DNA from: a candidate division SR1 bacterium Aalborg_AAW-1
Lineage (GTDB): Bacteria > Patescibacteriota > Gracilibacteria > Absconditabacterales > Absconditicoccaceae
Direction: 5' to 3'
Length of the DNA: 64,000 bases
NCBI GenBank assembly: GCA_001007975.1
Contig: CP011268.1
Coordinates: 868,001 to 932,000, forward strand
Shown: positions 16,665 through 46,927 of the stretch, piece after piece
Layout of the letters: every line of letters begins with the position of its first letter
Position numbering within the stretch: position 1 is the stretch's first letter
Program-made: the position numbers and the translations under genes
The notes under the pieces: model-generated
Seen by the model: only the letters and a program-made list of their open reading frames with translations
Databases searched by the model: none
Told to the model about the DNA's origin: nothing

Positions 16665-17450
16665 CTAAGAATCATAAATCGTTTTTTTAGCCACAAGACA
16701 AATATTTCTTGCACGCCGTAGTTTATGATGAAAATCTCAGTTCTGACTACTATACTGTCGCTCTATAATTTGGAGTCAGTATTGTTTAGTGAGTTGCTGT
16801 ATTTCGTTTATCGTATGTATATGATAAAGTCTATAGTGTGTTTCCCCTTGATCACGAAACGGAATAAGAAGATTGTTTCGCTCTCGTCTCCCTCATGTTA
16901 TTATGAATTGTTTGAGGGATTGTAAAAGTGGTTGATAGTGTTTTTGTAGCATCCATTGTGACCAAGATCGATCGATAGATAATCGTTTTCACTCATATCT
17001 TAGTGTGCGATAGAGTTGTTGTAAAAATTCTGATCTTGTACTTTTGTCTGGTAAGTGCTGATATGATGCCATTGTAATAATGATATCAATAGATTCATTA
17101 GCTTGTTTACTAAGATATCATATCATATCATCATTAATTCGTTGTATGGAAGTAGTCATAGAGCTCTCCTTGTTTGCTATCGTGAGTAGCTCGCTAGAAA
17201 TATCAACTCCAGTATATGACTTGATTACGTCAGGATATTGATTTTGTAATTCTCTTAAAAGACGTCAATCTCCACATCAAAGTTCTACAATATGAAGAGG
17301 TCTTTGTTGTTCTTGTGAAAGACTATAGATATGATCAAGGGTGTATTTCATTTCTGGTCGTATTTTTTTACGAGTTGAAGAAAATTTCTGCGCATGAGTA
17401 TTATAACATTCACTGAGATCTTTAATAGTGTTGGAATAGAGAGAATTCAT
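16665..17450 (-). CDS. Class I SAM-dependent methyltransferase
   Basis: A 261-residue protein. Motif I is IVELGCGDGRLL, with the first and last glycines written TGA; motif II region is YTGVDISSELL and a DIIITMASYQHL segment follows, as in small-molecule or tRNA methyltransferases. The C-terminal Arg/Lys-rich part is less typical. It lies 36 bases downstream of the glycosyltransferase-hydrolase fusion on the same strand, so a role in modifying the same surface product is possible but not shown. Substrate unknown. Confidence 0.8.
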
Positions 17451-17486: not shown

Positions 17487-20400
17487 TTATGAGATATTAA
17501 GAAATTCACATTGTTTAGGACGAAAAATAATGGGATTTTGTAATAGAATATCTATTCATTCTTTTTCTGTTAAAAGAAATTTTGACTTATTCCTTATACC
17601 GATATAAAAGTATAATTCATCATTGATGTGATTTGTATCTATGTATCAGCTAAGATCTATGATATTTTCTCTATAGTTATGGGTTTGTATTGATAATGAT
17701 TGTAAGAGATTGTTTAGAGTAGTGCTTATTTTAATCTTTTCTGTTCCAATATTATCAAATAAGAGTATATCTCCTGATTGTATTGGTGAATTAAATTTTA
17801 CTTTAAGGAGTAGGTCCTTGTTATTATAAGATTGATTTCGACTATGCAGTGGTAACCATTGTAAATTATCTATTGAATCGTTATTGACTGCAAAGTAGCT
17901 TTCTCAAGTAATAAGTGGAGAATAATTTTGTAATTCATAATATCATGTCAGTATATCTTTTTTATCACTACAAATCATTCATTGATGTGGTGGTATAAAA
18001 AAACGTAGATTTGATCATATTATTATTCATCATTTTTTTCAATATGGAAGCCATCACTCTCCTATAATATAGGGTTCAGAATGATTTTTTGATGGAATAG
18101 TTGTTGTTTGTTGAGATGGTAATCAATGATGTGTGGTATATGAAAACATTCAATCTTTGTTGTTTGAAGGTAATGATTTTTTTGGAATCAAAAATATCGT
18201 TTTCTCTCATGGTTTTAAAGTTCATATATCTTGATAATAATCATTATCTATTGAAAAAGAAATATTTTCTAATGTATATGGTCTTTTATTAGATAAGAGA
18301 AATATAATATTTCATCCACTAAATATGTTTTCTTTACTATTTATAATGTTTATGGAAATATCAGAAAAAATATCTTTAGTAATATAATATGATAATTTCG
18401 GTGTATTGTCTCTATATCGAATTCATCTCTTATCATCAGGTTGTTCTGGTTCGAGAGGATTATTAAGTGTATTAAATAAAGGTTGAGATCGATTGTCATG
18501 AGATTGAAATAATATTGATCAATCAGCTCATTTTTTTAGTAACATATTTCGTTGTTGTTGTATTCTATAAGCACGTAATGCTTCTGGAGGATTTTCATAA
18601 AATGCCACGAATCATCATAACTCACTTGCAATGAATGGCTTTTTTGTATCTTGTAATAAATCTATGATATCATTTCGATAGATAAATCATGAATCGAGCA
18701 TATTGATACTCAAGAAATCTACAGGATAATCTAAAATGATTTTATAAGATGCATAGGTTATGAGATACTCTGCTTTATAATTTTTTTGTATATTGTTAAT
18801 TAAGCTCATAATAGAATCTATAATATTTTTTTTATTAAGGAAGTCCATTTCATTCCCAATATTTAGAGAAAACAAAAATGGGTTATGTCATATTTTCTCT
18901 TTAAGATTTTTAAATCTTTTTAAGAATATTTGATAGCCATATGGTTGATGAATTTTTGCATTATCTCGTGTAGAGTTATTAGGTTGTGGGAAAAACAATA
19001 GTCATAATTGATTGGTTATTGTAAGAGCTTCTGTCGTTGGTTGATGATAAAAACGTACTAAATTTGCTCAAAGATTTCTAATTTGTTTGTATCATTGTTC
19101 TATAGGTATATAAACTCCTCATTGAGAAAAAGAGGGTACGATTCATTTTACAATAAACGGTTCTCCATTGAGTAGAAAATTTCAACTTTGAATACTTAGA
19201 TGAGATGTACTAAAATTGTATGTTCTTTCGCAGGATCAAATTTCAATTTTTCTTTGTTCTTGTTGAAATCATATATTAAAATACTCTGATATTGTATAAT
19301 GTATGGTTGATCATTCTTTAATAAATAGAGAATCATCAATAGGTAAGCTCTTATTATCTTTATCTCTTAGTATAATATTGTTTTTTATATTATCTCAGTC
19401 ATAAGATCATGTATATGTGATTTTTAGAAAGTCTTGAGATCAACTTTGTATAAGTGTTTTAGATATTCTATCTTCCCATTCTATACTCTGGTTAGTAATC
19501 AATCATCTTATACGAGAAAGTATCGGATTTTGACTACAAGATATATATGGTATCATATAATATATCAATCAAACTATTCATATAGGTAGTGCTATAATAA
19601 GAATTTTTTTTATGATATGAGCTATGTGTTTGATACGAGAATATGAAAACTCTCTTTGTATTGGTTTCCAATTTTTATTGCCAATCATATAATCACATAA
19701 TCACATAAAGACTGCATATAATCCAAAGAAAAGAGAAAGGGGATAAGTCAGAATAAGTAGAAATTTTTGTGATAAGAGTAGGTTTTTCGATTTAATCCAT
19801 ATATAGATATAAAGTAATAAAGGTAAAAAATATAGGTATAATATAATGTTTCATAATATGTTTTGATGATAGGTTAGTGATATAAGATAAAAATATAAAT
19901 CATGATTTATAAGATATAAAATGGGAATGGTTAGTAATGCAATATGAGGAATAATCCATAGAGTTGAACATATGGTATCAAATAAAAAATGTTTTATGCC
20001 ATGATTATATCGTAGACTCCAAATTGTTGATATAACTATTGATGTAATAATAATAATGTTTTGAATATGGTATGAGTACTGTGCCATAGTATAAAGACCT
20101 AGTCATAATATTACTATGAATGCACTTATGCACATGAGATAAAATAGTCAGTGTCGAATAGATTGGAGTTTGTTCATATAAGACAGTTGGGAAAAGATAA
20201 TATCTTTAATATGAGAAAAAAAACTGTGTGTATGTCAGTTTGATCGACGCCTTCTACGAGCTATATAACTGATGAGATCAGGAGAAACAAATTCATTAGA
20301 TCCGCTATCTGGTAGATATCATATCTTAAATCAATCACTGATTATATCATAACTTAGATAAGTATCTTCAGTTATTGATCATGAAAATCTATATTTTTTG

Positions 20401-21098
20401 AATAATGAGCTATGAAATAGTGCTGTTGTTCATGTAAAAAATATTAGTCATTTTTTACTAAAAATTTGATTATTATAAAATTCATTTAAAATGTGATTTT
20501 CCTGACTGTCCCATAATTGGAAAATATTTCATAATGATAAAGCTCAACGCTTTCACTGTACACCTATATATGCTTTATTGTTATTTAAAAATCATATACT
20601 TTCATTGATCCAATGTGGATGAGCTATATGATCTGCATCTAAAAATCATATAAAATGATTTTTTAGAGAATTAAGCACGGAGTTGATTTTGTCTTTTTTA
20701 CTCGTATATCAGGTTAAACATATTGATACTGTATATTCATTGTTGATGAGATAGGTGTCTCATAATTTTCAAATTGTTTTTGAATATTGTTCTAAAAAAG
20801 ACTGAAGATATATATAAGAGTTGTCATCCCTATCTTTTAATAGGACTCGTATATGGATTTGATTTCAGCCTTTTTGTTGTAAGATTGATTCGATAACCTT
20901 AATAAGGTGTTTTCATTCATTATGACTAGCGATAAGAATATCGCAATTATTTGATCACTGATGATTATAGTGATGATTTGATGTTACTGATTTTTTCTTT
21001 TTTTTAAAAGAAGACAAAAGTATGAGACCAATATGTCGATACAAAAATATACTTGATAATGATCATACTATTACAACAAGAATTATTTTAAGAAACAT
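17487..21098 (-). CDS. Glycosyltransferase family 2 fused to GH2-like hydrolase
   Basis: One 1203-residue frame, unbroken with UGA=Gly. Residues 1-30 hold a membrane segment. A GT-A domain follows: CDILIASHNEGKHLIKV, the metal-binding DAD near 154-156, a TED motif in SITEDTYLSYDI, and an Arg-rich RRRRRS segment before several membrane helices (about 310-480), like processive synthases. The C-terminal half resembles glycoside hydrolase family 2: LLNGEPFIVKGI, NLGANLVRFYHQP, acid/base Glu about 750 in SLNIGNEM, and nucleophile Glu about 826 in PFIASELGG. It may make and trim or transfer an exported polysaccharide. That coupling is inference. Confidence 0.8.
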
Positions 21099-21169
21099 GT
21101 TATAGAAAAAATAAGTAATCACTATGTATATAATTATTTATTAAATTGAATCAATAGCTAGGTTTATAT

Positions 21170-21190
21170 GAAGTCATTATAAATGACTTC
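21170..21190. repeat. Perfect inverted repeat upstream of the GT2-GH2 gene
   Basis: GAAGTCATT and AATGACTTC are a perfect nine-base inverted repeat around a three-base centre, 72 bases upstream of the fusion gene start. No T-run follows on either side, so an operator or an mRNA leader hairpin is more likely than a terminator. Confidence 0.5.
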
Positions 21191-21239
21191 AATAAACAAT
21201 GGAGTAATTATTTATGTTTTATACTTTTCTATTTATTAT

Positions 21240-21357: not shown

Positions 21358-22329
21358 CTACTTTTGAATCTTGTATGGAATGTTTTTTTGTTCTTTTTTA
21401 GATTTTTTTTCAAGTTTTTTTCTTTCTTTTTCAATTTTTTCTGCCTGTTTTTCAGCTAATTTTGCTTCTTTTTTAGCAACCTTTTTAGCTTGTTTTGCTT
21501 CCCATTTCATTCTATATCTTTCACGTTCTTCATCGCTTGTTCTTTGTGCAAGTTCGGCTTTTGCTTTGAGATATGCAGTTTCTTGATCAGGAGAGAGCTG
21601 TGGCCATTTGAGATTCATATCTTCAAATACTTTGAGCAATACTTTTGAGACTTGATAGACTTTATATCGATTTTTGTCTGCAGGTATAATATGCCATTCT
21701 GGTTTGTCACATTTTGCAAATATTGTTTCATAGACATCCATATATTCATCATAGTCATCACGAGTATCCCAGTCTCCAATATTATGTTTCCAATATTTGG
21801 TTGGATCAGTGAGTCTTTCATTTAATTTTTCTTTTTGTTTGTCTTTAGAAATATGAAGATAGAATTTTACAATAGTAGTTCAAGTTTCTTGGAGAAGTGC
21901 TTCAAATTCATTGATTTGATTATATCTTTTCTTAAGTATTTCTGGGTCGAATAACTTTTCTACTGTAGGTACGAGAATGTCTTCATAATGAGAGCGATTG
22001 AAGATTTGGACTTCTCATTTTGCAGGAGTCTCTTTGTGGATTCTCCATAGAAAGTCATGAGAAGCTTCTTCTTTTGTGGGAACTCTAAATGAGCTTGCTT
22101 TTGTTCCTAAAGGATTCATTCAAGAAAAAATATGTCTAACAACACCATCTTTACCTGCAGCATCAATACCTTGAAGGATTATCAGAAGAGATCTTTTACC
22201 TTCTGCATACATTTTGTATTGGTATGCTTGAATTTTTTTAATCATTTCTTGAGTTTGTTTGACAATCTTTTCTTTATTAAGTCCTTTGGGTGGGATAGTT
22301 GAAATTTTATTCAGTTTTAATGATGACAT
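21358..22329 (-). CDS. ppk2: Polyphosphate kinase 2 family protein
   Basis: PPK2 enzymes transfer phosphate between polyphosphate and nucleotides. The 323-residue protein has Walker [19 protein letters not shown], a lid region with [17 protein letters not shown], and Walker B-like [16 protein letters not shown], all characteristic of the single-domain family. After about residue 245 it carries an unusual tail of Lys, Glu and Ala ([17 protein letters not shown]), likely a long helix. It is 32 bases downstream of a VTC-domain gene, so synthesis and use of polyphosphate are probably encoded together. Direction of the reaction and nucleotide preference cannot be read from the sequence. Confidence 0.9.
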
Positions 22330-22361
22330 AGTATTGTGTGTGGGTAATAAATAAAATATTT

Positions 22362-23273
22362 TTATACAAGAACAGGTTCTTTTTTAATAGCTGTTGTTTT
22401 GCTTGGTTTTTTGATATCAGCAATAATAGATTTTTTTATTCCACCAAGTTTTTGGGTAGTTTTTTTTTGAATTTTTTTGATTGGCTTGTTGACTGCATCG
22501 ATGAAATTCATAGTATCTTTAAATCTTACTGTAGAAGGAATGGTATGAGTGTAAAGGATACCAAGACAGTATTTACTACATCATTTTGCTTCTTTATATC
22601 ATAATTTTTCTATAATAGCATGACTTTGAGACTTGTTATGACTAGATTTTGTTTCTATGATTGCCACAGGTCATAGTGATATAAGATCTGTGTTTTTATT
22701 CATGATGTCTTGTACTTGTACATCAAAGTCTATGGTGATTCTTTCATCATTTTTTTTACTACAGAGAGTAACTCTTTTGTATAAGGTACGTATGGTTGGT
22801 TTTAATGTCACGTGCGCATGATCGAGATTGAGACTTGTGCATATACTTTGATAAAATGAAGCACTTTGATTGGTGAGAATTTTGGACTCTTGTACAGGTA
22901 AACCATATCTTGATTTGCGAATAACTTCTCATTCTCTTTGTTTACATTCAAAGAATGCAATGTTGCTATCTACATATTCTCTTGTTCTTACTTTCATCCT
23001 AGAACTTTGTCCTCTTTCATGTTGATGGAAGAAAAGAAAATCATCAGTATCCATATAAATATTATCATACGTGAAAATAGAATTATTTTTTATAGAAAGT
23101 ATATAATAATCATGATGAAGTTCTTTCATAAGTGCTCAAAGATCTTCAAGTTTGATCATATATTTTTTTTCAATTCTTTCCATAAGACTCATTGTTGCAT
23201 TAAGCTGTTCAAGAGAAATAGTATCAAAGTCTTTAAGAGCTTCAAAAAGTTTTGTATTTGTTTGTTCTTTCAT
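22362..23273 (-). CDS. VTC-domain protein, probable polyphosphate polymerase
   Basis: A 303-residue protein with the tunnel-domain motifs of VTC proteins: EKKYMIK near the N terminus, the YMDTDDF strand, KVRTREY, FFECKQRE and the acidic IIETKSSH. In yeast Vtc4 this domain polymerises polyphosphate from ATP. A basic tail (KKIQKKTTQKL) follows. The frame is open to an upstream ATG at 23354 that would add a hydrophobic 27-residue leader; I chose 23273 because the leader is only AT-rich spacer-like sequence, but membrane anchoring cannot be excluded. It precedes ppk2. Confidence 0.8.
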
Positions 23274-23499
23274 CGTGTGGTTGTTTATATAACAAATAAA
23301 ATTATAACACAACAATACTAATGATATACTAAAAAAAATAAAAAAATCTATCATATTGACGAATAATGAGAGATCTTATTGTTTATTTGTTGTGAAATAT
23401 TATTGACATATTCTCTAAAATATTTTATTGTATTATTTTTTTTTCTATTTATAATAGAAAAGAAAGTGTATGACCAGATAATCTGTCTCTATGTGTATA

Positions 23500-28421: not shown

Positions 28422-29327
28422 TTATATATCATATATTTCAAATTCTATAGGATAAATGATATTTCTGTCTTGTGCTGGATCATAACATTGCCAAAACAAT
28501 GATTTTATATAATCTATTCACCATCAGGATACACCACACCCAATTTTAGTCAGTAAAAACTTTTTTTCTGGATGAGATCTTGTATAGACAAAAAAATCGC
28601 GTAATGATTGAGATAATGTTTGTTCGGTAGATTGTATAACTTCTTTACGTTCAGTTTGTGGATGTTGCATTGTAGGTATGGCATAACATTGACCAGTAGG
28701 TCAGGATCCTATACCTCGTTCTGCTCAGAAATCTTCATGAGCTTTTTTTGCAGATCAACCATAATGTTTTCCCTCTTCATTGGATCAAAAAACAAATATT
28801 TCATTAGGTTCTAATATCTCTATAGTATCCTGAGTATAACGTTGTTGTAGAAGAGATAAACAATATGATTCCGTATATTGTATCAGATCATCATAACTAT
28901 GGACTTGTCTGATATGATCTTTAGATCTTTCGCAGGCTATATCAATATTTCCTTTTCTCCAAAATCATTCTGGACACAATACTACAGCATTTTTCTTCAT
29001 TCATCTCACAAGATTGAATTCTCCAATAGTTATGGGCGATTTGGTATGAGGATCAAAATAGAATAGTATAAGATCACTTAATATAATATGATCTTCTTCT
29101 CGATGGACCTGCTGGACAAAATTGTGATTATGAAGAGATTGTTCTCGAGAAGAATTTCGTTGATCACGACGAGGATTATAAGCAATACCTAATATATTTA
29201 ATAAGTCGTGTAGTATGCGTTGTTGCCATTGTTCAGCTTTATCCATTTCAATGCTTCCTGCTAAAAAAACACGAGGAAGTCTGGAGTGAATATGTGAGTA
29301 TTCTCCTGTAGGTTTGATTTCTTTCAT
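28422..29327 (-). CDS. Nucleoside 2-deoxyribosyltransferase-like domain fused to A1S_2505-like domain
   Basis: A 301-residue two-domain protein and last gene of the NAD operon. The N-terminal half (about 15-140) has PRVFLAGSIEMDKAEQWQ, YNPRRDQ, ILSDLILFYFDPHTKSP and ITIGEFNLVRG, as in nucleoside 2-deoxyribosyltransferase-like proteins, with GEF holding the expected catalytic Glu. The C-terminal half (about 165-295) has NEIFVFGSNEEGKHYGGSAK, GQCYAIPT and KIGCGVSGWGI, matching a phage-associated family often labelled A1S_2505. The reaction is unknown. Context suggests handling of ribosyl products of NAD turnover (inference). Starts 27 bases downstream of the NadM-Nudix gene. Confidence 0.8.
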
Positions 29328-29354
29328 GAGAGTGAAAATTAATGAAATAAGTAT

Positions 29355-30317
29355 TTATGAATTCATTGTGATATGAGCCAGAAGTGTGTCTTTATGATCT
29401 GGAAATGCAAAATCCTCGAGAGGGCGATTCATAACTTCTTCAGGACTAAGAAATGTAATAGAAGAGATATCATCTCATCATGTTACTTGTCATCATAAGA
29501 TCTTCGCTTCATAAGCAAATGATATGATGCGTCATCTTGGATCTCTTAGTGGATTATCATTGATACGAAGAGGATGTTGGGATGTTAATATAAGTTGTTT
29601 ATCAGGATCATCTCTTTGGAATAATTCTTCATATCATTCTCTCAAAGCGCACTCATGGATACGTTCTCAAGGATCTAACATTCATCAAATTAGTGCCAAA
29701 CCATAGGGTGCATGTTTTCTTCTACCGACTATATACTTTTTATTGTATACAATAATGAGATCGGTAGCTATTCTTGGTGGAGTAGGATTCTGTCTCTCGA
29801 TTGATTGAATGATTTGAGGAGCATTGATTTGTTTGTAAAGCTTAATAATTTCTTCTGGTACAGATTCTCTTAGTGTTTTCCAATCTTCCATTTGGAGCTG
29901 ATATCTAATATGTGTACCTCTATAGGGAGTATCGAAAATAGGGATTATTGTTTTTTTGTCATTCCAGATACTATTCACATGAGGATTTCATGAAATAAGA
30001 GTATCAAAATCTGGTACGGTATCTTGTATATGTTTTTTTCGAGCTTTTACGTCATTGAAGTCAGGAATGTTATATATTTCATAACTGATATATGGATGGT
30101 CTTGCTGTAGAAGATTCATCAGCGTATATGCAATATTTTCTCTTTCTTGAAAATTGAAAGGATTCTCTGAGGTTCTTTCCTTATTTGAACTACCAATACC
30201 ATACAAGATATGATGTATTCAGGAATCTATTGCTTGTATAAGAGCAGAAATATGTCATTTGTGTGTGCCTTGTGTACGTGATATGAATAATCATGTAGTT
30301 TTTATTGAATGCTGCAT
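29355..30317 (-). CDS. nadM: Bifunctional NMN adenylyltransferase / Nudix hydrolase
   Basis: A 320-residue fusion. The N-terminal adenylyltransferase (about 1-180) shows the nucleotide-binding start LFISRTQGTHKGHISALI, the SSNKERTSENPFNF segment and the late TPYRGTHIR motif; it should make NAD from NMN and ATP. The C-terminal Nudix domain (about 195-315) contains GGMLDPGERIHECALRE with the full catalytic pattern; in comparable cyanobacterial and Francisella fusions the Nudix part hydrolyses ADP-ribose. The adenylyltransferase histidine pair reads THKGH. Within the NAD salvage operon, 27 bases from each neighbour. Confidence 0.88.
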
Positions 30318-30343
30318 TTTTTAATATTAAAACTTATAAAGTA

Positions 30344-31702
30344 TTATACAAGAGTCTCTTGTTGTTGCATTCCCTCAACTCAAAAAATTTCTTTGAAGAA
30401 TTGAACTCTTTCTAAAGATCCCATCGCTTTATTGGGATTGTCAGAAAGTTTTACTGTAGATACTCGTGTCCCATCATCTCTTTGCACTTGAGAAGGTTTA
30501 ATAACTACTGAGAATGATCAGAATGGTGTTCAAAGACCATAGTCTGACACAATTGTATGCTTTGTATTATTAGTTAGAGAAGTACCAATACCGAAAGTAA
30601 GATTATTACTTACTCCGTATACATCCATGATGTCTTGTACAGCTTTAGCAGATAATCCATCACTTGGTATGCCAATGACTGATTTGGGATTTCTTCCATG
30701 TTGTTGTAAGAATCTATTATACTCAGCTATGCCGATAAGAGGATCTTTAGAATCAAATCTCATACCATCGTGATTCATAGCTATGTCTTGAGGACAATTA
30801 TTAAGATAAAATGATGTTCCATAGGTGTCGGCTAGTAAGATTCCTAATCAAGGATGATGTTGCATCCATTGTCTATCAATATCATACATAGTATCAATGA
30901 TGTCTTGTGGTTTATCCAGAAGAGCAGTAGGAATCATACGAAGTTCATGTGCATTAGTTCCTTTAGGATTGCTGAGTCCAAGTTCACGAGAAAGCAGTAC
31001 ATTACTTGTTCATAAACATTGATCTGGAGCTTGTTCCATTAATATATTGATAATAGTACGTTGAAAATCACTACTCATACTCCTTCTCGTACCAAACTCT
31101 GAAAAAGTTAGGTTATCTATGCTGTTATAAATTTTTATATCATCAAAGAGTCTTACCAGTGTTCTAGAAATCATCTCTGTAAAGGTTGTTGGTGAAAGAT
31201 GTGCTTTTTTCGTCCAATAATAGAGATAAAGAGAATTAATGATTTTTAATCAGATAATCTCCCACAATGTTGAATCAGCCCAAGTTCATTCAAATTGGAG
31301 AGTGTAATTTTTTCAATCATCTCAGATGGTAAAGGCAGGAAGTTGGAGATTTTTGAGATAATCGATAGTTTCTTCTTTAAGAAGACGTTTCCCATTAGCA
31401 GTATTGTGATTATTGTCCATTCCTCTAAGAAAAGAAAGATCTACATCAGTAAATTTTAATGTTCTACAGTGGGTGAATTGCTCTTCAAGCGCTTCTCTAG
31501 GGATAATATCTAGCGTTCTAATATCTTTGGATCTAATGTTCATCTCTCGTCTGACATTGACATCTCTATATTCTGGATGTGCGATAATAAAATCCAACAT
31601 CGTAAATTTATACATATCAGTATCAAGTAAAGAATGTATTTCCGGAACTCACCTTGCCGCTGCAAAAAAGTCACGATCAGTATATAATCAAATTTTATTC
31701 AT
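30344..31702 (-). CDS. pncB: Nicotinate phosphoribosyltransferase
   Basis: Joins nicotinate to PRPP to give nicotinate mononucleotide. The 452-residue protein has SLLDTDMYKFTMLDF near the N terminus, FSEFGTRRSMS with the conserved GTRR-type motif, GTNAHELRMIP and VIGIPSDGLSAK, FGIGTSLTNNT for phosphate binding. Length suits the family. It lies between nadE and nadM in the operon; with PncA upstream it completes the deamidating (Preiss-Handler) route. Confidence 0.94.
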
Positions 31703-31726
31703 GATTATTATGTGTTACTAATAAAT

Positions 31727-32542
31727 TTATGAAATAGTAAGAATTGGTGGCATATTTATTTTATGTGTATTTGCTTCATGTCTTTGCATATAGATAGTCA
31801 TAATTTTTTGTGCATATTCATCATCATAGTCTTGTGGTCTTTTTCAATGATCATATTGTTCCATAGCTCGTTCAAGTTCATCATAACTAGCTCCTATTTG
31901 ATCTTCATCTGTTGCTCAGGTTGGATGTAATCAGTCAGTAGGTTTTGCTTGTATAATATCTTGATTAATATTCATGTGTTGTGCTAGTTTTTTAACCTCA
32001 GATTTGAGAAGATTTCATATGGGACTAAGATCTACTCAACCATCACCATATTTTGTAAAGAATCATATGCCATAATCTTCTACTTTATTTCCTGTTCCTA
32101 TAACTAATCATTGATTTGCTTGTGCAATCGCATAAAGCGTAGCCATTCTTAATCTTGATCTGGTATTAACAAGGGCCATATAAAGTTCATCTTCAGCATA
32201 TCATACATGAAGAAGAGTTTCTTTGATTGTTTCAAATGTCTTAGTAAGATCAATAGTATGAGATTTTATATTTGGATAGTTGCTTTGTAACCAATCCATA
32301 TGGTTATTTGCACGATTGAGTTCTTCAATATTTTGATGGATAGGCATAGATATTAATATCGTAATAAGATCTGTTTTTGCACAGAGTGTAGAAACTGTAG
32401 CAGAGTCAATTCCTCCACTAATACCTACAATACAAGCTTTGCTCTGAGCTGTATTAGTTACATAATTTTTAATATCTGTAACAAGCTTGTTTTCTATCGT
32501 ATTATAATCAAGATTTCTGTTGGTTGCTTTATATGTTGTCAT
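31727..32542 (-). CDS. nadE: NAD synthetase (ammonia-dependent type)
   Basis: Converts nicotinate adenine dinucleotide to NAD with ATP. The 271-residue protein lacks a glutaminase domain. It has the PP-loop IVGISGGIDSATVST, the VNTRSRLRMATLYAIA helix, and GTGNKVEDYGIGFFTKYGDG with GVDLSPIG, all diagnostic for NadE. Operon member, 27 bases after pncA and 24 before pncB. Confidence 0.96.
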
Positions 32543-32569
32543 AGTAGTACACTTGTAAGAAGTAAAAAT

Positions 32570-33319
32570 TTATGAAATGTTGCTATTGTAAGAAGATAAT
32601 AATGCTTCGAGTTCTTGAGAAGTAATAAGTATCGCTCATTGTTGTTGAAGATTATATTGTACTATATTTCCTTGTTCTGGTGATATAGAAGCAATTGCAT
32701 CGGTGATAAGATAGGTTTTATATTGTTGAGCTAATGCTTCTAATACCGTATCTTGTATGCAATAATCAGTAGCTACTCCTGTTATGATAAGGCTATGAAT
32801 ACGATGTTTCCTCAGTACATCATTTAAGTCTGTTCAACCAAATCATCAATAAGGATGTTTATCTACTTGATGTCATTTACTGATATGAATATCAAATAAT
32901 TCTGGAGTAAGTGGTGGCATGAGTTCATGACTATTTGTTTCAGACCTAGCATGATCTGGTCGAAGAGTATCGGTTTGGTTTCTTCTGGATTGGAGATAAG
33001 ACTTGAGTTGGTCTACTCAGAACGCTGCTGTGTCAGATAATCTATTTTTTTCGTTAGTTCGATGTTGTATTTCATCATATGATATCATATCAAAAGGTTG
33101 TTTATCCTTATAGCTTGATGCGAAACTAATATGTCCATTAGGGTGTGATTCGAAGACATTAATGATTAAAAGATTATTATTCTGACAGATATTAATTATT
33201 GTTTTAGTCTGTTGCGCGACTAACTCACCATTAGGTACATAGAGTTCATGGAGTGTCTTATCTTCAAAAGTTTTTATATTATCGATACTGAGAAGGGCTA
33301 TTCCATTATTGGGTTTCAT
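32570..33319 (-). CDS. pncA: Nicotinamidase / isochorismatase-family hydrolase
   Basis: Deaminates nicotinamide to nicotinate. The 249-residue protein carries the expected Asp (LLSIDNIKTFED), a Lys-containing segment (ISKGHQVDKHPYGGF) and the nucleophilic Cys in ITGVATDYCIQDT, which match the nicotinamidase triad. The sequence is longer than many PncA by an insertion in the middle. Its position between pnuC and nadE supports nicotinamide as substrate. Confidence 0.88.
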
Positions 33320-33331
33320 AGTAACATATTG

Positions 33332-34009
33332 TTATGAGATAAATGTATGATCCTTTTGCTTTTTATAAAGTGAGTACCACTTTATGAGTCATCCAATAGC
33401 GATTCACAAGAAAAGTATGTATTCTATAGCGATGAAATGCACTCATTTGATGAAGTAAAGATAAATACCGATAATATCTACTATGATCCATAATACCCAG
33501 GCTTCTACTTTCTGACGAATCATAAGTATAGTTGCAGCAAAGCTTAGAATAGTTGTGAAAGAATCTAGTAATATATAACTTGCAGCTTGTGGGAATAGAT
33601 TGTTGAATCGTATATGGAGATGTGAGGTTATATAGGCTAATAATAAAGTAGTAATTGCTATTCATACTATATATAAGATTCTATTTTTATTCTCTACTAG
33701 TGTTATATTCTTATCTGATTGTTGTTGGTTTCAGTGCTTAGACCATATATACCAACCATAAAACCCTGTGACTATAAAATACAATTGTTCTCACAAATCA
33801 GCATAGAGTTGAATTTGATAAAATAGTGCTACATATAATAAACTTCCTATAAGTCCTACTGGTCGGTTTCGTATTTTGTTTTTAGATACGAGATACACAC
33901 ATAGTATGTTGAATAATGTTCCTACAAATTCTATATAACTCATCTGATAGTCTCCTATCGTGAAGATAATGGTATTGATGTTCAGATAATGTAAGATTAT
34001 TTCAGTCAT
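33332..34009 (-). CDS. pnuC: PnuC-type nicotinamide riboside transporter
   Basis: A 225-residue membrane protein with about seven helices. The family core is clear: MSYIEFVGTLFNILCVYLVS, NRPVGLIGSLLYVALFYQ, QLYADLGEQLYFIV and YGWYIWSK. PnuC lets nicotinamide riboside in by facilitated diffusion, trapped by phosphorylation through NadR. I chose the ATG at 34009 because it gives an N terminus of normal length; an in-frame ATG at 34099 would add 30 residues, and one at 33943 would start right at the core. The start lies inside the 3' part of the UGA=Gly nadR frame. Confidence 0.9.
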
Positions 34010-35006
34010 GATGAGTATTGTATAAAGATATAAAATGGTTATTAATAATGGTAATACATTGTTCAAAGCGTTGATTCCAATCGCTTCAAGTAATGACATG
34101 ATAGTCTATATTATTTTCTCTGAGTTGTCTTTTGTGAGATTCTTCAAGATTTTTTCTACGATTTTCTTCTATTCTTGTGCCATCCTGCGTATAAGGACAA
34201 TCAGTATTTAAGAAAAGATAGAGGTCTCATATATTGGTTTTTCTAATGTTTTCTCATACTATTAACTTCTTTTTGAAAAGGAATTGTGAATAAGATTCGG
34301 TGATTGATATATCTGAATCTATAAATAAAAATTTATTTGCTGTTTTCTCTCTTTTTTTTATTTCTTTGTAGTGGAGATGTGCAATATGGTATAAGTCATT
34401 ATATGTTACAGTATTAGTATGAGATATTATTAATCTTGCCATTTCTGGAACATACGTTGTGTCATAGTAATTTGCTAAGAGTTGTGTCATAGTAGATTTA
34501 CCAGTAGATTCAGATCAAACAATGATTATTTTTTTTGTAAAATATGATTTGGCATATTGATTAAGGTAATTTCGATAATGAAGTGGATTATTTCTAATCA
34601 TTGTTCCAGAGATAGGAATTATGTTCCTTGATAGATCAAAACAAACATGATCAATATTCATATACTCAGCTACATAATCTCCATATGGTTCTGAAGTAAA
34701 GATCACATCTACAGTTGGAAACTCTTTTTTGAGATAAGTAGATCGTAATAATGATATTTCTCTCGATGATTCACTACTAGATGGTAAGTCTTCTGTGATA
34801 TGTATGACGGATATATTTGAATATTCCTTATAGGTGTCTTTGACTCGTTTATACCTGACTTCTCATGGTATAGGTTCTGAACTTATCGAACATACCCCTA
34901 TAGTAAGGTGATGTGATCTTTCTAGTCCGAAAGTAATAAGTTCTTCATGACCAAGATGAAAGGGCATAAATTTACCAATAATGAGTCAGTTGTTATATTT
35001 TTTCAT
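33882..35006 (-). CDS. nadR: NadR-type NMN adenylyltransferase / ribosylnicotinamide kinase
   Basis: Bifunctional enzyme: N-terminal adenylyltransferase (GLIIGKFMPFHLGHEELITF, later PISGTMIRNNPL) and C-terminal kinase with P-loop IIIVGSESTGKSTMTQLL and VPEMARL. It lacks the N-terminal DNA-binding domain of enterobacterial NadR. The recognisable protein ends near VITGSDWNQRFEQCITI, about residue 325. At codon 335 (34004-34002) the frame meets TGA, overlapping the pnuC start as ATGACTGA. With UGA=Gly the frame runs on to TAA at 33882, adding 39 residues inside pnuC and giving 374. The extension looks unlike the family. First gene of the NAD operon. Confidence 0.9.
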
Positions 35007-35040
35007 TATTATCTTGTTGATAAAGTAAATGATTTTATAT

Positions 35041-35057
35041 AGTGTAATAAATACATT
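35041..35057. promoter_or_regulatory. Candidate NrtR operator 1
   Basis: AGTGT-N7-ACATT, a one-mismatch copy of the repeat AATGT-N7-ACATT found twice more in this control region. It overlaps the -10 box of the proposed nadR promoter, a position suited to repression. Confidence 0.5.
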
Positions 35058-35084
35058 ATATTGAATTGATTATTATATAAACAA
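35055..35084 (-). promoter_or_regulatory. Candidate promoter of the NAD salvage operon
   Basis: On the minus strand TTGTTT (35084-35079) and TATAAT (35060-35055) are 18 bases apart, about 50 bases upstream of the nadR start. Confidence 0.5.
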
Positions 35085-35106
35085 ATAAATACTAAAAATC
35101 AAGAGA

Positions 35107-35125
35107 AAATGTAAAAAATACATTT
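35107..35125. promoter_or_regulatory. Candidate NrtR operator 2
   Basis: AAATGTA-N5-TACATTT, a perfect seven-base inverted repeat in the middle of the nadR-nrtR intergenic region. It would overlap the -35 area of a promoter with TATATA at 35141 reading toward nrtR. Confidence 0.55.
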
Positions 35126-35186
35126 AATTTAAGAAATGGCTATATAAAAGGAAATTTTTTGTATTTTTACTTGCAAAATCAAAAAA

Positions 35187-35203
35187 AATGTTTATTTTAC
35201 ATT
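35187..35203. promoter_or_regulatory. Candidate NrtR operator 3
   Basis: AATGT-N7-ACATT, 28 bases upstream of the nrtR start, same arm sequence and spacing as operator 2. It may serve autoregulation. Confidence 0.5.
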
Positions 35204-35230
35204 AAACAAATTTACTTTAATGCTTTTTCG

Positions 35231-35890
35231 ATGATTCAACAGCATATATTGATGACGGTAGATGGTATTATCTTTACTATTAAAGATCAATCACTTCAGG
35301 TTCTTTTGATAGAAAGATTACTTCCTCCTTTCGAACATATGCGAGCATTACCAGGATGATATGTGTTAGATAATGAAACTCTAGAGCAGGCTGTCTACAG
35401 AGAAGTACAAGAAGAAACATGAGTTAATAATGCTTATTTAGAACAATTGTATACATTCTCTGATCTTGATAGAGATCCACGTTGAAGACATATTACATGT
35501 GCATATATGGCATTGATGAGAAGTGATGATATAGATCTTCAAGCATGATCAGATGCTACAAATGCGAAACTATTTCCTGTTAATCAGTTGCCAGAATTGG
35601 CTTTTGATCATAAAAAAATACTTAACTATGCGATACAAAGACTAAAGTACAAACTTGAATATACCAATCTAGTACAGTATCTTTTGCCAGAAAGTTTTAC
35701 TTTGACTGAATTATATCAAGTCTATGATATAGTATTTCAACAAGATTTTGATATTAGAAATTTTAAAAAGAAAATTCTGAAACTCAATATTGTAGAACCT
35801 ACAGGAGAGAAGGTTGTGAGAGGAGTCCATAGACCAGCAATGTTATATAAGTTTATTACGCCAGATACTGCTATTGTAGAAATATTATAG
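35231..35890 (+). CDS. nrtR: NrtR-type transcriptional regulator of NAD metabolism
   Basis: A 219-residue protein with an N-terminal Nudix-like domain (VDGIIFTIKDQSLQVLLIER, GGYVLDNETLEQAVYRE, QEETGV) and a C-terminal winged-helix domain (about 145-215: ESFTLTELYQVYDIVF, then RNFKKKILKLNIVE and HRPAMLYKF). This order, and the closing RPA-LY-F motif, define NrtR, a repressor that senses ADP-ribose or related products. The Nudix catalytic pattern is complete, so activity may remain. Divergent from the NAD salvage operon with three operator-like repeats between. Confidence 0.92.
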
Positions 35891-41309: not shown

Positions 41310-42269
41310 ATGAAAAAAATTATTTCTATCGTTATTCCTGCGTATAGAGAAGAACTCTATCTCAGAGAAACTATTGCTCTCTTGATGAAAGAATTGGCGT
41401 TGTTTTCTCATGATTATGATTTTGAGATTGTGATCGTTAATGATGGAAGTCCGGATGATACCTGGTGAGTCATACAATCCTTATCAGCAGAGTATGAGAG
41501 TATTGTAGGAGTAAATTTGAGTAGAAATTTTGGGAAAGAGATTGCACTGACGGCATGATTAGAGCAGAGTAGTGGAGATGCAGTTATTACCTTAGATGCT
41601 GATGGACAATATCCTATCGATAAGATTCCGCTCTTTTTGCAAAAACGAAAAGAATGATATAAGATCGTCTATAATAAAAGACCAGTACAACAAGGAGTTT
41701 CATGGTTCAAAACTATGTCTTCCAAAGCATTTTATCGACTGTTTTCTCAGTTATCTGATGTTCAGATAGAATCACAGACAACTGACTATAGATTGCTTGA
41801 TCGTGAAGTAGTGAATGTATTCCTCAAATTTAAGGAAAAGAATAGAATGTTCCGTTGACTGATTGATTGGGTTGGATTTAAGAGATATGCCTTAGAGTTT
41901 GATACGCTCCCTCCTCCTCATGGTCGTGTTGCATCCTACAGCTATAGTAAGCTCTTCAAATTGGCTCTCGATAGTTTGACATCTTTTTCTGCTGTGCCAT
42001 TGAAGTTGATTGGGTTACTATGAGCTATGATTTCGTTACTTAGTAGTCTAGCGATATGCTTTATATTAGGACACAAAATCTTCTTTGATAATGCATGGTG
42101 ATTTACGAATTTGGGTCTTTTTACACTGTTCAATACCTTCTTTATCGGTATTATGATGATAGGTATGGGACTGATAGCAATGTATATTGCTCGTATTCAT
42201 GATGAGGTTATGGATAGACCATTATATATTGTGGATGAAGTCATTAAGAATGAAAACATGAAGCATTAA
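41310..42269 (+). CDS. Polyprenyl-phosphate glycosyltransferase (GT2, GtrB/DPM-like)
   Basis: A 319-residue protein: GT-A domain with SIVIPAYREELYLRETI, IVNDGSPDDTW, ITLDADGQYPID and the SQTTDYRLLDR segment, then two C-terminal membrane helices (about 225-300). This is the layout of GtrB-like enzymes that load a sugar onto undecaprenyl phosphate. The sugar is unknown. First gene of the surface polysaccharide region. Its last codons lie within a 37-base direct repeat that recurs at 42976. Confidence 0.9.
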
Positions 42270-42293
42270 GAATGAAAAATTTATATGTTCTAT
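42257..42293. repeat. Direct repeat, copy 1
   Basis: 37 bases starting CATGAAGCATTAAGAATGAA and ending TATATGTTCTAT; the second copy at 42976-43012 differs at one base. It includes the end and stop codon of the GT2 gene. Confidence 0.85.
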
Positions 42294-42296
42294 GAT

Positions 42297-42411
42297 GTAT
42301 TGCTCATTTCTTGGAAAATCCTCAAGTGATATAGAGTGTTGTAACCAATATGAGAAAAGAAAGACTATGAAAAATGATTATAGTCAACAGACGGCTTTAT
42401 TGTATAAGTAA
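42297..42411 (+). pseudogene. Remnant of a GT4 gene 3' end
   Basis: About 115 bases resemble the last 117 bases of the glycosyltransferase gene ending at 44688 (FFENPQKI, then TMRKERL and TALLYTK in the intact gene). Here the copy has an in-frame TAG and a one-base frame shift before the matching TTATTGTATAAGTAA end. It begins directly after direct repeat copy 1. It is a decayed duplicate. Confidence 0.7.
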
Positions 42412-42416
42412 ATAGT

Positions 42417-42812
42417 ATGAGAAAACTCTTTCAACAACGATGACTTCTTAAGCCTAAAATTCATGATAAAAAGGTTGAATTTTATGTTAATGAAAGAGAA
42501 GTATGGTATATCCATTTATGAATCAATATAGGGTATGAAGAAGATGGTAAATGATGAGATAGTAAAAGACCAGTATTGATTATTAAAAAAGTAGGAAATA
42601 TGTTTTTTGTAGTTCCTTTAACGACTAGAGGAAAAGATAATAATATATTTTATCATCGTATTCATGATGAAACTTTTAAGGTAAGTTCTCGAGCGATATT
42701 ATCTCAAGTGAAAATGATAGATAAAAATAGATGTATTGAAAATATATGAGAAATATGAAAAGATGATTTTATTATTATAAAGAAAAAACTTAAAGATCTT
42801 TTATGACTTTAA
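42417..42812 (+). CDS. MazF/PemK-like toxin-family protein
   Basis: A 131-residue protein. REVWYIHLGINIGYEEDGKG, KRPVLIIKKVGNMFFVVPL and SSRAILSQVKMIDKNRC match the MazF/PemK endoribonuclease fold, where the first segment and the Arg/Ser before the late strand form the active site. No antitoxin gene is adjacent: upstream is a gene remnant, downstream a promoter and HIT gene. It ends TTA-TGA-CTT-TAA. The gene lies between two 37-base direct repeats, which suggests insertion or duplication. Toxicity is not shown. Confidence 0.8.
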
Positions 42813-42828
42813 GTTTTATAATTTTTCT

Positions 42829-42844
42829 CTCCGATTACTCGGAG
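42829..42844. repeat. Short perfect hairpin downstream of the MazF-like gene
   Basis: CTCCGA and TCGGAG pair around a four-base loop. No T-run follows on either strand, so it is not a standard terminator. Confidence 0.4.
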
Positions 42845-42919
42845 GAGGATCCCGAAGGACATTTGTTCTTATATCATACTCAAAAAATCATAAAATGCAA
42901 GTAAATTAAGAGAGTTTAA

Positions 42920-42948
42920 TTGACATTTGTATTTGTATTGTGTATAGT
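42920..42948 (+). promoter_or_regulatory. Sigma-70 promoter for the HIT / polysaccharide operon
   Basis: TTGACA at 42920-42925 and TATAGT at 42943-42948 with a 17-base spacer, the best consensus promoter in the window. It lies just before direct repeat copy 2 and 74 bases upstream of the HIT gene. Confidence 0.75.
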
Positions 42949-42975
42949 ATATATGATACTGTGAAAGTATTAAGC

Positions 42976-43012
42976 CATGAAGCATTAAGAATTAAAAATT
43001 TATATGTTCTAT
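42976..43012. repeat. Direct repeat, copy 2
   Basis: Second copy of the 37-base repeat (36 of 37 identical), ending 9 bases before the HIT gene start. Together the copies bracket the GT remnant and the MazF-like gene. Confidence 0.85.
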
Positions 43013-43021
43013 ATATGAAAT

Positions 43022-43462
43022 ATGAGTAGTTATAAAGAAATCCTTAATAGTGAGAGACCTTGTCCTTTTTGTCATGAAGAAGAGCAATTTCGAATTGATA
43101 GTAATAGTACGTGTTATGTTATCCCTTCTCGTGCTCCCTATACCGAAGATCATATCCTTATCTGTCCCAAATCACATAAAAAATCATTAGATACCTTATC
43201 TGCTGATGAACTCAGTGATATACGAACTCTCTTACAACAGTGGCAACATATCTTGTATCACAAACATGGTGAAGTCGTACTGATGCTCAGAGAATGAGTA
43301 CCATGAGGTACGACAGGTAAGACACTAGAACATTTGCATTGGCATATCGTACCTCAGTTTACGATCCAACATGGATGATCACAAGAAGCGAGTGACGCAA
43401 GAAAATTTCTGAGTGATGAAGAATATATCCAACGTAGGAATGTATTACAGGAATTATGCTAA
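43022..43462 (+). CDS. HIT-family (histidine triad) protein
   Basis: A 146-residue nucleotide-binding protein. It starts with a zinc pair CPFC, as in GalT/HIT relatives, has RAPYTEDHILICPKSHK, and ends the active site with EHLHWHIVPQ, the His-x-His-x-His triad. HIT enzymes hydrolyse or transfer nucleotides from phosphoramidates or dinucleotides. Substrate unknown. First gene after the consensus promoter and 29 bases upstream of a glycosyltransferase. Confidence 0.88.
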
Positions 43463-43491
43463 ACAGATAAGTCTTTATATGATTGATACAT

Positions 43492-44688
43492 ATGGATCAA
43501 AAAACAATAGCTATCATCTCTATTTATCCACCACAAGCTACTCTTCATGGTTCATGAGCTAGTGGTGTTTGATCGTATACAAAAAATCTCCTCACGAATA
43601 TGGATGAACATGAGAGAAAAAAAATAGTAGTATTGTGTGATTATGATACAGAACCTGCATCCTATACAGAAGATAGAATGATGATCGAACGTTGTCGACA
43701 GAGAAAGTGAATAGTACAATGGCTACAGCAGATTATAAGAGTATTGGAAAAATATCCTCATCTGACTACCATTCATATTCAGCATGAATTTAATATGTTT
43801 GGGAGCATACTCACGGTTCCTGTTTTTTTGATGTTATTACGAATATTGAGAAAATATAAGATTGTCGTAACGTATCATGGTGTAATAGATACCAGTAGTA
43901 TTGATAAAGAGTATGGGAAAATCAATAGCTTGCCTCGATATTTTCCTCCTTTTTTCTTAAAATTTGCGTTTTGGTTTTTCTATGCAGTGAGTAGTAAACA
44001 CATAGATACTGCTATCGTTCATGAAGAATATTTTAAGAAAGTTCTTATGAAGTATAGATATAGAGATGAACAAGTAAAAGTTATTGTCCATGGTGTAGAA
44101 GATCGTAATTTGTCTATCTCACAGCATGATGCGAGATCAAAACTTGGTATCGAGTCAGATAAGAAAGTGCTTTTATATTTCTGATTTCTTGCTTGATATA
44201 AAGGAGTTGATCTCTTACTGAATACATTTCAGACTATGGATTATAGTCAGTATCATCTTATCCTAGCAGGAGGTACTCCCAAAAGAACTCTTGCTGATCC
44301 CTTATTTCGTGCTCGATATGAATGAGTAGATACAAAGGCAAAGAATATGACATGAATCACAAGAATGTGATTTGTGCCAGATGAAGAGATAGAAACATTA
44401 TATGCGGCGGCAGATGTATTGGTCATACCATATCTTTATATGCTGGCTGCGAGTGGACCTATGGCACTAGCTATTACCTACAATTTACCCTTTATCGTGA
44501 GCGATGTGTTTTCACCAGTGATTGTAGAAGAGAGTATGAGATTTGAAAAAACACCACAATGATTGTCTAAGTGTATTACTCAGTTCTTTGAAAACCCTCA
44601 AAAGATACAGAATATTATCATCACTATGAGAAAAGAAAGATTATGGAAGGTGGTTAGTGAGAAGACAGCTTTATTGTATACAAAATAG
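43492..44688 (+). CDS. Glycosyltransferase, family 4-like (GT-B)
   Basis: A 398-residue GT-B protein. N-terminal: IAIISIYPPQ, a Gly-rich GSGASGVGSYTKNLL loop, and IVVTYHGVID. C-terminal: KKVLLYFGFLAGYKGVDLLL, ILAGGTPKR, and a donor-site helix around YAAADVLVIPYLYMLAASGP. The usual EPFGL-type glutamate region is replaced by this variant. Its 3' end has a decayed duplicate at 42297-42411. Next gene begins two bases after its TAG. Confidence 0.85.
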
Positions 44689-44690
44689 TA

Positions 44691-45839
44691 ATGAAGATAC
44701 TCTTATGTGTACCAGAATATCCTCCCCATCACGTCGGTTGATGATGACCTGTTTTTCATGCATTGGCGCAAGAATATACAAAACTCTGACATGAAGTTAT
44801 GGTGATCTATGGGTATTATCCTACGAAACACGGTTTTGAATCTCTCAAACAATATACAGAATATGGAATTCAGTTTGTACAAGTACCTCTTTTACCTACT
44901 CCTAGGTTTACTTCATTTCTCAAGACGGTATTACCAACTTGACCATGGAATCTCTCCAAACTCCGTAATATAATTCGTGATTTTCAGCCAGAAAAAGCTC
45001 ATTTGCATTGATATGGACTGATGTTTATCAATCAATTGGCAAAAATTATTGTTGATCAAAAAATTCCGTATATCTATACGCTTCATGGAGCTCCCGTCAG
45101 TGCCGATAAGAAATGATGAATAATTCAGAAAGTATATAATCTGTATAAACATACTTGGGGGAAATTTATCTTGGATCATGCTTCAGATATTACTGCTGTA
45201 TCGCAGTATACAATAGATAACTTCTCAGAATTTCATCCGTATAAGGATCGTATCAGAATAGTGCCTAATGGGATCTATCCAGAAGAGTTTGCAAAACAAA
45301 TAGACTACAATATCTATGATCAGTATAACGTACCAGAGTGATCAACGATTTATCTCTCGATATGACGTATAGAACGACGAAAGTGACACGATAAATTTAT
45401 TAAAATGATACCAAGTTTAGTAGAAAGTTGAGTAGATGTAAGATACTTCATCGCTGGACAAGATAATGGATATAAACAAGTGTTAGATAGTTTATCGCAA
45501 GAATTATGAGTTTCAGAGAGAATATATTATCTCGGATTCGTATCGTGAGATGATAAATTAAGTATGTTGCAGCATGCAGATTATGTCATATTCCCATCAG
45601 AAAAAGAAACATTCTGATTGGTAACGCTTGAAGCTATGGCATCATGAACTACACCAATAATTAATAATATCTGATGATTTGTAGATATTGTACAAGATTG
45701 AAAAAATGGGATAATAGTAAATTTCAGTAGAGTAGAGGAATATAGAGGACTTATATGAAAAAACATTAATAAAGATGTTATGAGATGAACAGTCCAATAC
45801 TATAATTGGAAAAAAATTGCAATTAATTATTTATGATAG
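44691..45839 (+). CDS. Glycosyltransferase, family 4 (GT-B)
   Basis: A 382-residue cytosolic GT4. It starts MKILLCVPEYPPHHVGGGGP, where three of the four glycines are TGA, and has IYTLHGAPVS, TAVSQYTIDN, RIRIVPNGIYPEEF, YLSIGRIERRKGHDKFI and the donor site FPSEKETFGLVTLEAMASG. These are diagnostic. Almost all conserved loop glycines use TGA. It ends TTA-TGA-TAG. Part of the polysaccharide operon; donor and acceptor unknown. Confidence 0.92.
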
Positions 45840-45853
45840 AATAATAAAAATTT

Positions 45854-46927
45854 ATGAAAAAAATATTATTACTTTCTCCATCAAACCCCTTTTATAAATG
45901 ATGAGTTTCTATATTTGTTAAAAATATAACACACTATATTTCTTCAAATTATGAAATTGATGTCGTATATCCAAATACATCTAATACTTTTTTACAAATA
46001 AATAAAAACACTAATTATATATGACTAAAAATATTGAATATACCTATATTAAATAATTTATTATTTATGTTAAGACTTTTGTTTCGAGTTGGAAAACAAA
46101 ACTATGACTTAATTATTGATAATACTTGATATTCATTTGTATTTTGAAAAAAATATAAAAAAGTTATTATAGCTCATTGAAGTCATTATGAAAATTTAAA
46201 AGCTAGAAAAATCAAATGAATATATAGTTTTTTTTGATGGGTTGCTATGTTTATTCTTACTATTTATCAAAAATATGGAATTATTTTTTCTTATAAGACT
46301 ATTGCTATCTCCAAAAAAGTAAAAAATGAATTGATAGAAAATTATAATATAAAAGATTCTGAAAAAATAAATATTATATCAAATTGAACTTTATATGAAT
46401 ATTGAGAAGATGAAATACATATTCTGCTTAAGAAAAGATTGTGAAATAGAGTATGTTTTATATCAACGGATCATAGTTGGAAATGAATATGAATTATAGA
46501 AAAATTAGCAGTTTCAAATCCAAGAATTGAGTTTATAATTTGTTGATATGATTATAAACCTAAACAAAAAAATGTTAATTATATCTGATTATTAAATGAG
46601 AACGAACTTAAAGATATTATGCTTCTTAGCGATGTTTTTCTTTTACCTTCGAAGTATGAGTGACAATCTTTAGCTATTTTAGATGCTATGGCATGTGGTC
46701 TTCCAATTATAACTTATAAAAAATCAGATCCTTCTATTTGAACTGATATTTGATACATTGTTAATTCTTTAGAATGGAAAGATTATGATTTTGTTATTAA
46801 AGAAATATTTAAAGATAAGCATAAAAGAGAAAAAATTTCTATTAATAACGCATTATTGATGAAAAAATATATATGGTTAAATCAATGAAATCAGTATTTA
46901 TCTTTAATTAAGGAAATTTTATGATAA
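45854..46927 (+). CDS. Glycosyltransferase, family 4-like (GT-B)
   Basis: A 357-residue protein, very AT-rich. The start MKKILLLSPSNPFYKGGVSI, VIIAHGSHYENLKAR, TIAISKKVKNELIENY, INIISNGTLYEYG, and the donor site LLPSKYEGQSLAILDAMACG give the GT4 pattern. Nearly every Gly is TGA. Stop TGA-TAA: the ATG of the next gene overlaps (ATGATAA). Base composition differs from the neighbours on the left, hinting at separate origin. Confidence 0.85.

Follow-up and report, generated by a model that had tools for sequence, protein, structure and literature searches.

A single gene of the candidate division SR1 bacterium Aalborg_AAW-1 (Absconditabacteria), an ultra-small member of the Candidate Phyla Radiation (CPR), encodes a membrane GT2 synthase together with a predicted GH2-related barrel that keeps both catalytic glutamates, as the original prediction had claimed, and the pairing is kept in a second genus. 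The fusion is real, intact and conserved, yet rare. It lies on the minus strand of the window, by which we mean the 64,000-nucleotide stretch of contig CP011268.1 analyzed here (positions 868,001 to 932,000), within a genome that consists of a single contig of 1.04 Mb and is 98% complete. Overall, we consider it fairly probable that this one polypeptide both makes and processes a surface glycan, by means of an extruding synthase and a tethered clan GH-A domain.

An intact and rare fusion gene

With TGA read as Gly, the frame is open throughout and contains 59 in-frame TGA codons; translation with table 11 leaves longest internal pieces of <80 aa. The gene starts with an ATG at 21098 (alternative GTG at 21122) and its stop codon occupies 17487-17489. 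Both the coordinates and the length originally given for this frame were correct, as were the positions of the DAD and TED motifs, of Glu750 within GNE and of Glu826 within SELGG (Table 1).

Table 1. Features of the fusion gene and its product, in window coordinates
Feature	Residues	Coordinates	Strand	Evidence or remark
Fusion gene, GT2 synthase + TM region + GH2-like domain		17487..21098	(-)	1203 aa
TM1, then cytoplasmic-side KKKKK	3-29	21012..21092	(-)	Hydropathy; AF2 helix 2-29
GT2 (GT-A) catalytic domain	52-300	20199..20945	(-)	PF13641 E=2.6e-15, PF13632, PF00535; R. sphaeroides BcsA E=6e-9
DAD motif, metal/UDP binding	154-156	20631..20639	(-)	Invariant in relative
TED motif, catalytic base	243-245	20364..20372	(-)	Invariant in relative
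RRRRW, QxxRW-type	281-285	20244..20258	(-)	Last codon CGA=Trp; relative has TGG there
Membrane region	307-517	19548..20180	(-)	About five spanning helices + one interfacial/re-entrant (IF3-like); ends with TM 498-517
Ig-like/linker, with C521 and C623	518-630	19209..19547	(-)	AF2 strands only, low confidence
GH2-like (clan GH-A) TIM-barrel	631-915	18354..19208	(-)	HHalign 96.7% to GH2 set; PDB GH2 matches
Predicted acid/base (GNE)	Glu750	18849..18851	(-)	Aligned with UidA E413; invariant in relative
Predicted nucleophile (SELGG)	Glu826	18621..18623	(-)	Aligned with UidA E504 and GUS nucleophile stretch; invariant in relative
C-terminal beta domains	916-1203	17490..18353	(-)	AF2 secondary structure; 17-28% identity to relative

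The same two halves are joined in an independent homologue, a single 1145-aa frame of the public record JAHDCT010000058.1, which belongs to a MAG from a different genus. Overall identity between the two proteins is 33%; it reaches 42% within the GT core, is 39% for the barrel and falls to 17-28% for the C-terminal domains. The DAD, TED, RRRRW, GNE and SELGG motifs are all invariant between them, as are R682, H685, W870 and an RDNTPK stretch at the end of the barrel. Agreement of this extent is far more than chance would produce, and an intact fusion in another genus rules out two genes joined by a sequencing error, the artifact against which the original prediction had cautioned.

The survey of CPR genomes proposed at that stage yielded this second fusion, and the gene is rare and patchy in distribution. 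At class level, a profile of the GH half picked out 2 of the 353 genomes searched; at family level, a whole-protein profile picked out 2 of 49; and among 380 genomes sampled from the phylum, Aalborg_AAW-1 was the sole positive. Three apparent standalone relatives of the GH half within the class were rejected as noise over unrelated genes. Viral contigs held no relatives of the fusion, and plasmids matched the GT half alone (20-23% identity to BcsA-like proteins). Scanning genome contigs with a few short peptide patterns recovered only the same relative; fusions may still occur outside the phylum. TGA accounts for 59 of the 76 Gly codons of the gene, a usage adapted to the lineage, and the fusion is therefore no recent arrival.

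CGA and CGG encode Trp in Aalborg_AAW-1

Absconditabacteria have been inferred to read CGA and CGG as Trp and TGA as Gly (Shulgina and Eddy, PMC8629427). In a codon alignment of the fusion gene with that of JAHDCT010000058.1, TGG and CGA oppose each other at residues 163, 196, 285, 711 and 870, and CGA faces CGA at residues 808 and 894; the other CGA codons of the fusion gene fall mostly within weakly conserved stretches. The genome's tRNAs with anticodons UCG and CCG possess discriminator G73, A/G1:U72 and no A20. By the identity rules of the same study (PMC8629427), these features match the genome's own tRNA-Trp and differ from its tRNA-Arg. Reading CGA and CGG as Trp raised the PF13641 score of the fusion from 50.6 to 57.5 bits and its PF13632 score from 30.4 to 37.6, and lifted the profile score of LeuRS in the same window (61111-63564) from 836 to 872 bits. 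Among other window genes, GyrA and HemW rose slightly, MurD lost 4 bits and PilB was unchanged.

The codon swaps, tRNAs and score gains confirm that table 25 is incomplete for Aalborg_AAW-1 and that CGA and CGG encode Trp, which the translation used for the original prediction had missed. Of the GT motifs reported from that translation, DAD and TED stand, but the 'Arg-rich' RRRRR does not: codon 285 is CGA and therefore Trp, making the motif RRRRW, of the QxxRW type that marks processive synthases. Table-25 translations contain Arg-for-Trp errors throughout the window. For the clade as a whole this is a warning, given that table 25 converts conserved Trp residues, including one in a synthase motif, into Arg.

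The synthase half resembles processive GT2 enzymes

The N-terminal half combines the features of a processive GT2, namely a GT-A fold with DxD and TED motifs, an RxxRW-type motif and helices after the GT domain. Three GT2 Pfam models scored above their cut-offs over the catalytic domain, and a profile built from the two fusion proteins matched R. sphaeroides BcsA across profile positions 53-330. The nearest NCBIfam models (CelA, PgaC and NodC) all scored well under cut-off. An AF2 model of the whole protein was reasonable for the synthase half only, and a Foldseek search with it returned the Chlorella virus and Xenopus hyaluronan synthases (HAS), BcsA and chitin synthases, with matches extending over the GT and membrane regions and, for this moderate-confidence model, ~520 alignment columns to HAS and BcsA. 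On the strength of this model, the helices following the GT domain may form a channel in the manner of BcsA and HAS. No PilZ domain was found in the protein, and no bcs genes lie near the fusion gene.

Identity of the synthase half to known polymer synthases is low (~20%), and Foldseek also lists non-processive enzymes such as PcManGT. Both observations would suit a non-processive GT2 that attaches a single sugar, or a handful, to a lipid or glycan acceptor, from which the GH domain would remove or transfer them in a form of glycan remodelling. We consider this unlikely, since RRRRW stands where QxxRW is expected and the GT domain is followed by a complete BcsA/HAS-like membrane region; both features point instead to an extruding synthase.

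The GH domain is probably outside the membrane

Hydropathy analysis revealed one hydrophobic stretch ahead of the GT domain and six after it, all of similar strength. If one stretch within residues 316-470 is interfacial, the GH domain lies outside, and residues 373-397 occupy the position of IF3 in BcsA and HAS. Six-TM variants with the GH domain outside all put the majority of Lys/Arg on the inner face in both proteins (6-15 inside, 0-7 outside). The balance was reversed in the seven-TM model with the GH domain inside (in/out 3/6 and 6/9). Only two cysteines, C521 and C623, are common to both proteins; they lie directly after the last helix and directly before the barrel, respectively, and the relative has just three cysteines in its 1145 residues. 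A C521-C623 disulfide is predicted.

Were all seven stretches to span the membrane, the GH domain would be cytoplasmic and share a compartment with the GT domain, where its substrate might be, for instance, a primer linked to lipid or protein. The similar strength of the seven segments and the AF2 helix over every one of them are compatible with such an arrangement, but it would leave the Lys/Arg-rich loop 465-498 outside, disregard the interfacial helix present at the corresponding position in BcsA/HAS-type synthases and sit poorly with a conserved Cys pair that suggests an oxidizing compartment; we regard it as decidedly unlikely. Overall, the charge pattern, synthase homology and Cys pair make it very probable that the GH domain is outside the membrane, in line with the outer-face location originally proposed. 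The structure prediction suggested for deciding the matter drew a helix over each hydrophobic segment but failed over the GH half, where pLDDT was low.

A GH2-related barrel with a retained catalytic pair

To place the GH domain, a profile of the two fusion proteins was compared by HHalign with a set of eight GH2 enzymes from public records. The barrel aligned over 275 columns with a probability of 96.7%, a score of 87.0 and E=3.6e-10 (single comparison), and 100 column shuffles gave scores of at most 26.7. Controls returned probabilities of 0.7% for the reversed query, 0.2% for the GT half, 0.1% for the C-terminal tail and 0.1% for a GH1 set from the same clan; split into its LacZ-like and GUS-like members, the GH2 set still gave 87-91% with either half. 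PDB sequence searches with single- and two-sequence queries matched 6d1p (E=1.3e-5), 6s6z (2e-5) and 6u7i (6.6e-5) over the whole barrel, and GH2 enzymes were the only convincing relatives. The GH half of the relative, used as a lone PDB query, retrieved no GH2 entry, and the GH2 link therefore rests on the window protein and the joint profile.

The Pfam GH2_C model (PF02836) had no match at E<=10 to the GH domain alone or anywhere in the genome, and none of the 328 genomes searched within the class contained a match (control positive in 5 of 14 named genomes). The jelly-roll sugar-binding N-domain of GH2 enzymes (PF02837) likewise had no match in the fusion, where ~110 residues separate the last TM from the barrel. 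Two PROSITE-type GH2 signatures, in what we take to be their form, did not match the GH domain. Beyond the barrel, AF2 secondary structure suggests an Ig-like domain (916-1010) followed by a further beta-rich domain. Taken together, these comparisons provide good support for the kinship of the barrel to GH2 and for its retained catalytic Glu pair. The initial label of 'GH2-like hydrolase' is apt as a statement of kinship only, given the missing PF02836 match and N-domain, and the loss of catalytic residues in relatives that would have weakened it was not seen in JAHDCT010000058.1.

Many synthases have non-catalytic periplasmic partners, and the barrel is divergent, with neither a GH2_C match nor the sugar-binding N-domain. 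It might accordingly be a pseudo-enzyme, a binding or scaffold module that guides the chain from the channel without catalysis. This is quite unlikely in our assessment, because both glutamates, GNE, SE-GG, R682, H685, W870 and RDNTPK are invariant at 33% overall identity and few regions are better conserved than the barrel; these observations favor a catalytic domain.

AF2 models of the GH half, whether from the whole protein or the half alone, had pLDDT values mostly of 20-50, as only two homologues are known. Foldseek with the GH-half model (pLDDT 42) ranked GH157/GH158 endo-beta-1,3-glucanases at the top, and in the PDB search the GH domain matched 6pal, which we take to be a GH158 enzyme, only at E=0.44. 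Given the low-confidence model, this affinity serves as a lead only. In many GH2 enzymes the sugar-binding domain shapes an exo-pocket. The loss of this domain and the endo-glucanase fold matches make endo action of the GH domain plausible.

A model for synthesis and processing by one polypeptide

The scheme that we infer, including outside location, processivity, polymer identity and GH action on the chain, would begin with a cytoplasmic GT2 that polymerizes sugar from a UDP donor. Two genes of the genome have GalU as their best NCBIfam match (E-values down to 8e-73, although the scores fall short of the curated cut-off), and UDP-glucose is therefore likely to be available. Together with the distant kinship to BcsA, they suggest that the donor is probably UDP-glucose, in which case the product would be a beta-glucan. 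The chain would be pushed through the synthase's own membrane helices, as in BcsA and hyaluronan synthase, towards the C-terminal clan GH-A domain held outside the membrane at the channel exit. There the retaining Glu750/Glu826 pair would cut or transglycosylate the nascent chain and so set its length, release it or close a ring.

Comparison with known synthase-glycosidase systems

The closest functional parallels are the pseudomonad 'Orphan' and NdvB proteins, in which a GH17 barrel, modelled as periplasmic, is joined to a BcsA-like GT2 (PMC10237404). Their GH17 domains transglucosylate beta-1,3-glucan, and the proteins have been proposed as cyclic beta-1,3-glucan synthases (PMC10237404). As in these proteins, the fusion would combine in one polypeptide a cytoplasmic BcsA-like GT2, membrane helices and a retaining clan GH-A TIM-barrel placed outside at the channel exit. 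In contrast, their GH17 domain, which has been assayed, is N-terminal and has its own signal helix, whereas the GH domain predicted here is GH2-like and C-terminal, behind an extra last helix, and is followed by further beta domains; no GH17 family match was found in the fusion protein.

The rhizobial cyclic beta-1,2-glucan synthase (CGS) consists of GT2, GH189 and GH94 (PMC11842490). The rhizobial and Brucella CGS/ChvB proteins also fuse a GT2 synthase to other domains, which cyclize and adjust the product, but they are ~300 kDa proteins with an (alpha/alpha)6 GH189 and a GH94 phosphorylase, where the fusion has a TIM barrel. No sequence link between the fusion and CGS/ChvB was found. The GT2 core and membrane plan are also those of BcsA, whose product is edited outside by the glucanase BcsZ/CcsZ, but that glucanase is a separate protein, and the fusion differs further in lacking PilZ and nearby bcs genes. 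With GH2 enzymes such as UidA and LacZ the fusion shares the barrel, the GNE acid/base, an E-G nucleophile and a barrel-end '(R)D..PK' stretch; it departs from them in the absence of the jelly-roll domain and PF02836 match and in its membrane tether behind a synthase.

By this comparison, the fusion belongs to neither the 'Orphan'/NdvB nor the CGS type, having another GH family at the opposite end in another lineage, and would work like them. The idea of a synthase with its own hydrolase or transglycosylase, put forward in the original prediction, has precedents in 'Orphan'/NdvB (PMC10237404) and CGS (PMC11842490). The narrower statement that this exact pairing lacks a well-described case agrees with our search of open-access papers, which turned up no account of a GT2-GH2 fusion, although the general principle is known. 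The novelty may lie in the GH2-like nature and C-terminal position of the partner, here in Absconditabacteria. More speculatively, the GH-A domain could found a new GH family or subfamily, derived from GH2 without the sugar-binding domain, and act as an endo-transglycosylase that cyclizes or size-limits the exported polymer, so that the GH17-GT2 strategy would have arisen here a second time, independently; we hold this fuller proposal to be possible but doubtful.

Matching a glycosidase to the polymer that it edits is usually difficult, and synthase-glycosidase fusions make the match directly visible. If a GH2-like barrel does underlie a second, independently evolved type, the strategy would be convergent. 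The surface glycans of Absconditabacteria, a group with no genetic system known to us, would also become accessible through a single gene.

Genomic neighborhood

No polysaccharide operon surrounds the fusion gene, whose neighbors are polyphosphate genes and a methyltransferase. Immediately upstream on the same strand, genes for a PPK2-family polyphosphate kinase and a VTC-domain protein (polyphosphate polymerase type) adjoin at 21358-23354 and possibly represent a polyphosphate pair in a CPR bacterium. A perfect palindrome, TGAAGTCATT-TAT-AATGACTTCA (21169-21191), occurs as a single copy in the window ~70 bases 5' of the fusion ATG and may be an operator or hairpin. Past the fusion stop, a SAM-dependent methyltransferase gene (16665-17450) begins after ~36 bases on the same strand and is a possible operon partner. 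The two fusion loci have no conserved neighborhood, and their adjacent methyltransferase-like genes are not homologous.

Elsewhere in the window, an NAD-salvage island (28422-35890) encodes nucleoside deoxyribosyltransferase-like, Nudix, NAPRTase, NAD synthase and isochorismatase/nicotinamidase-like proteins, a PnuC-type NMN transporter, a NadR-like protein whose frame overlaps that of PnuC, and a divergent NrtR-type Nudix regulator. A glycan cluster ~20 kb from the fusion (41310-52557) includes a GT2, glycosyltransferase-like proteins, a polysaccharide flippase and a large LysM-domain membrane protein (46921-49554).
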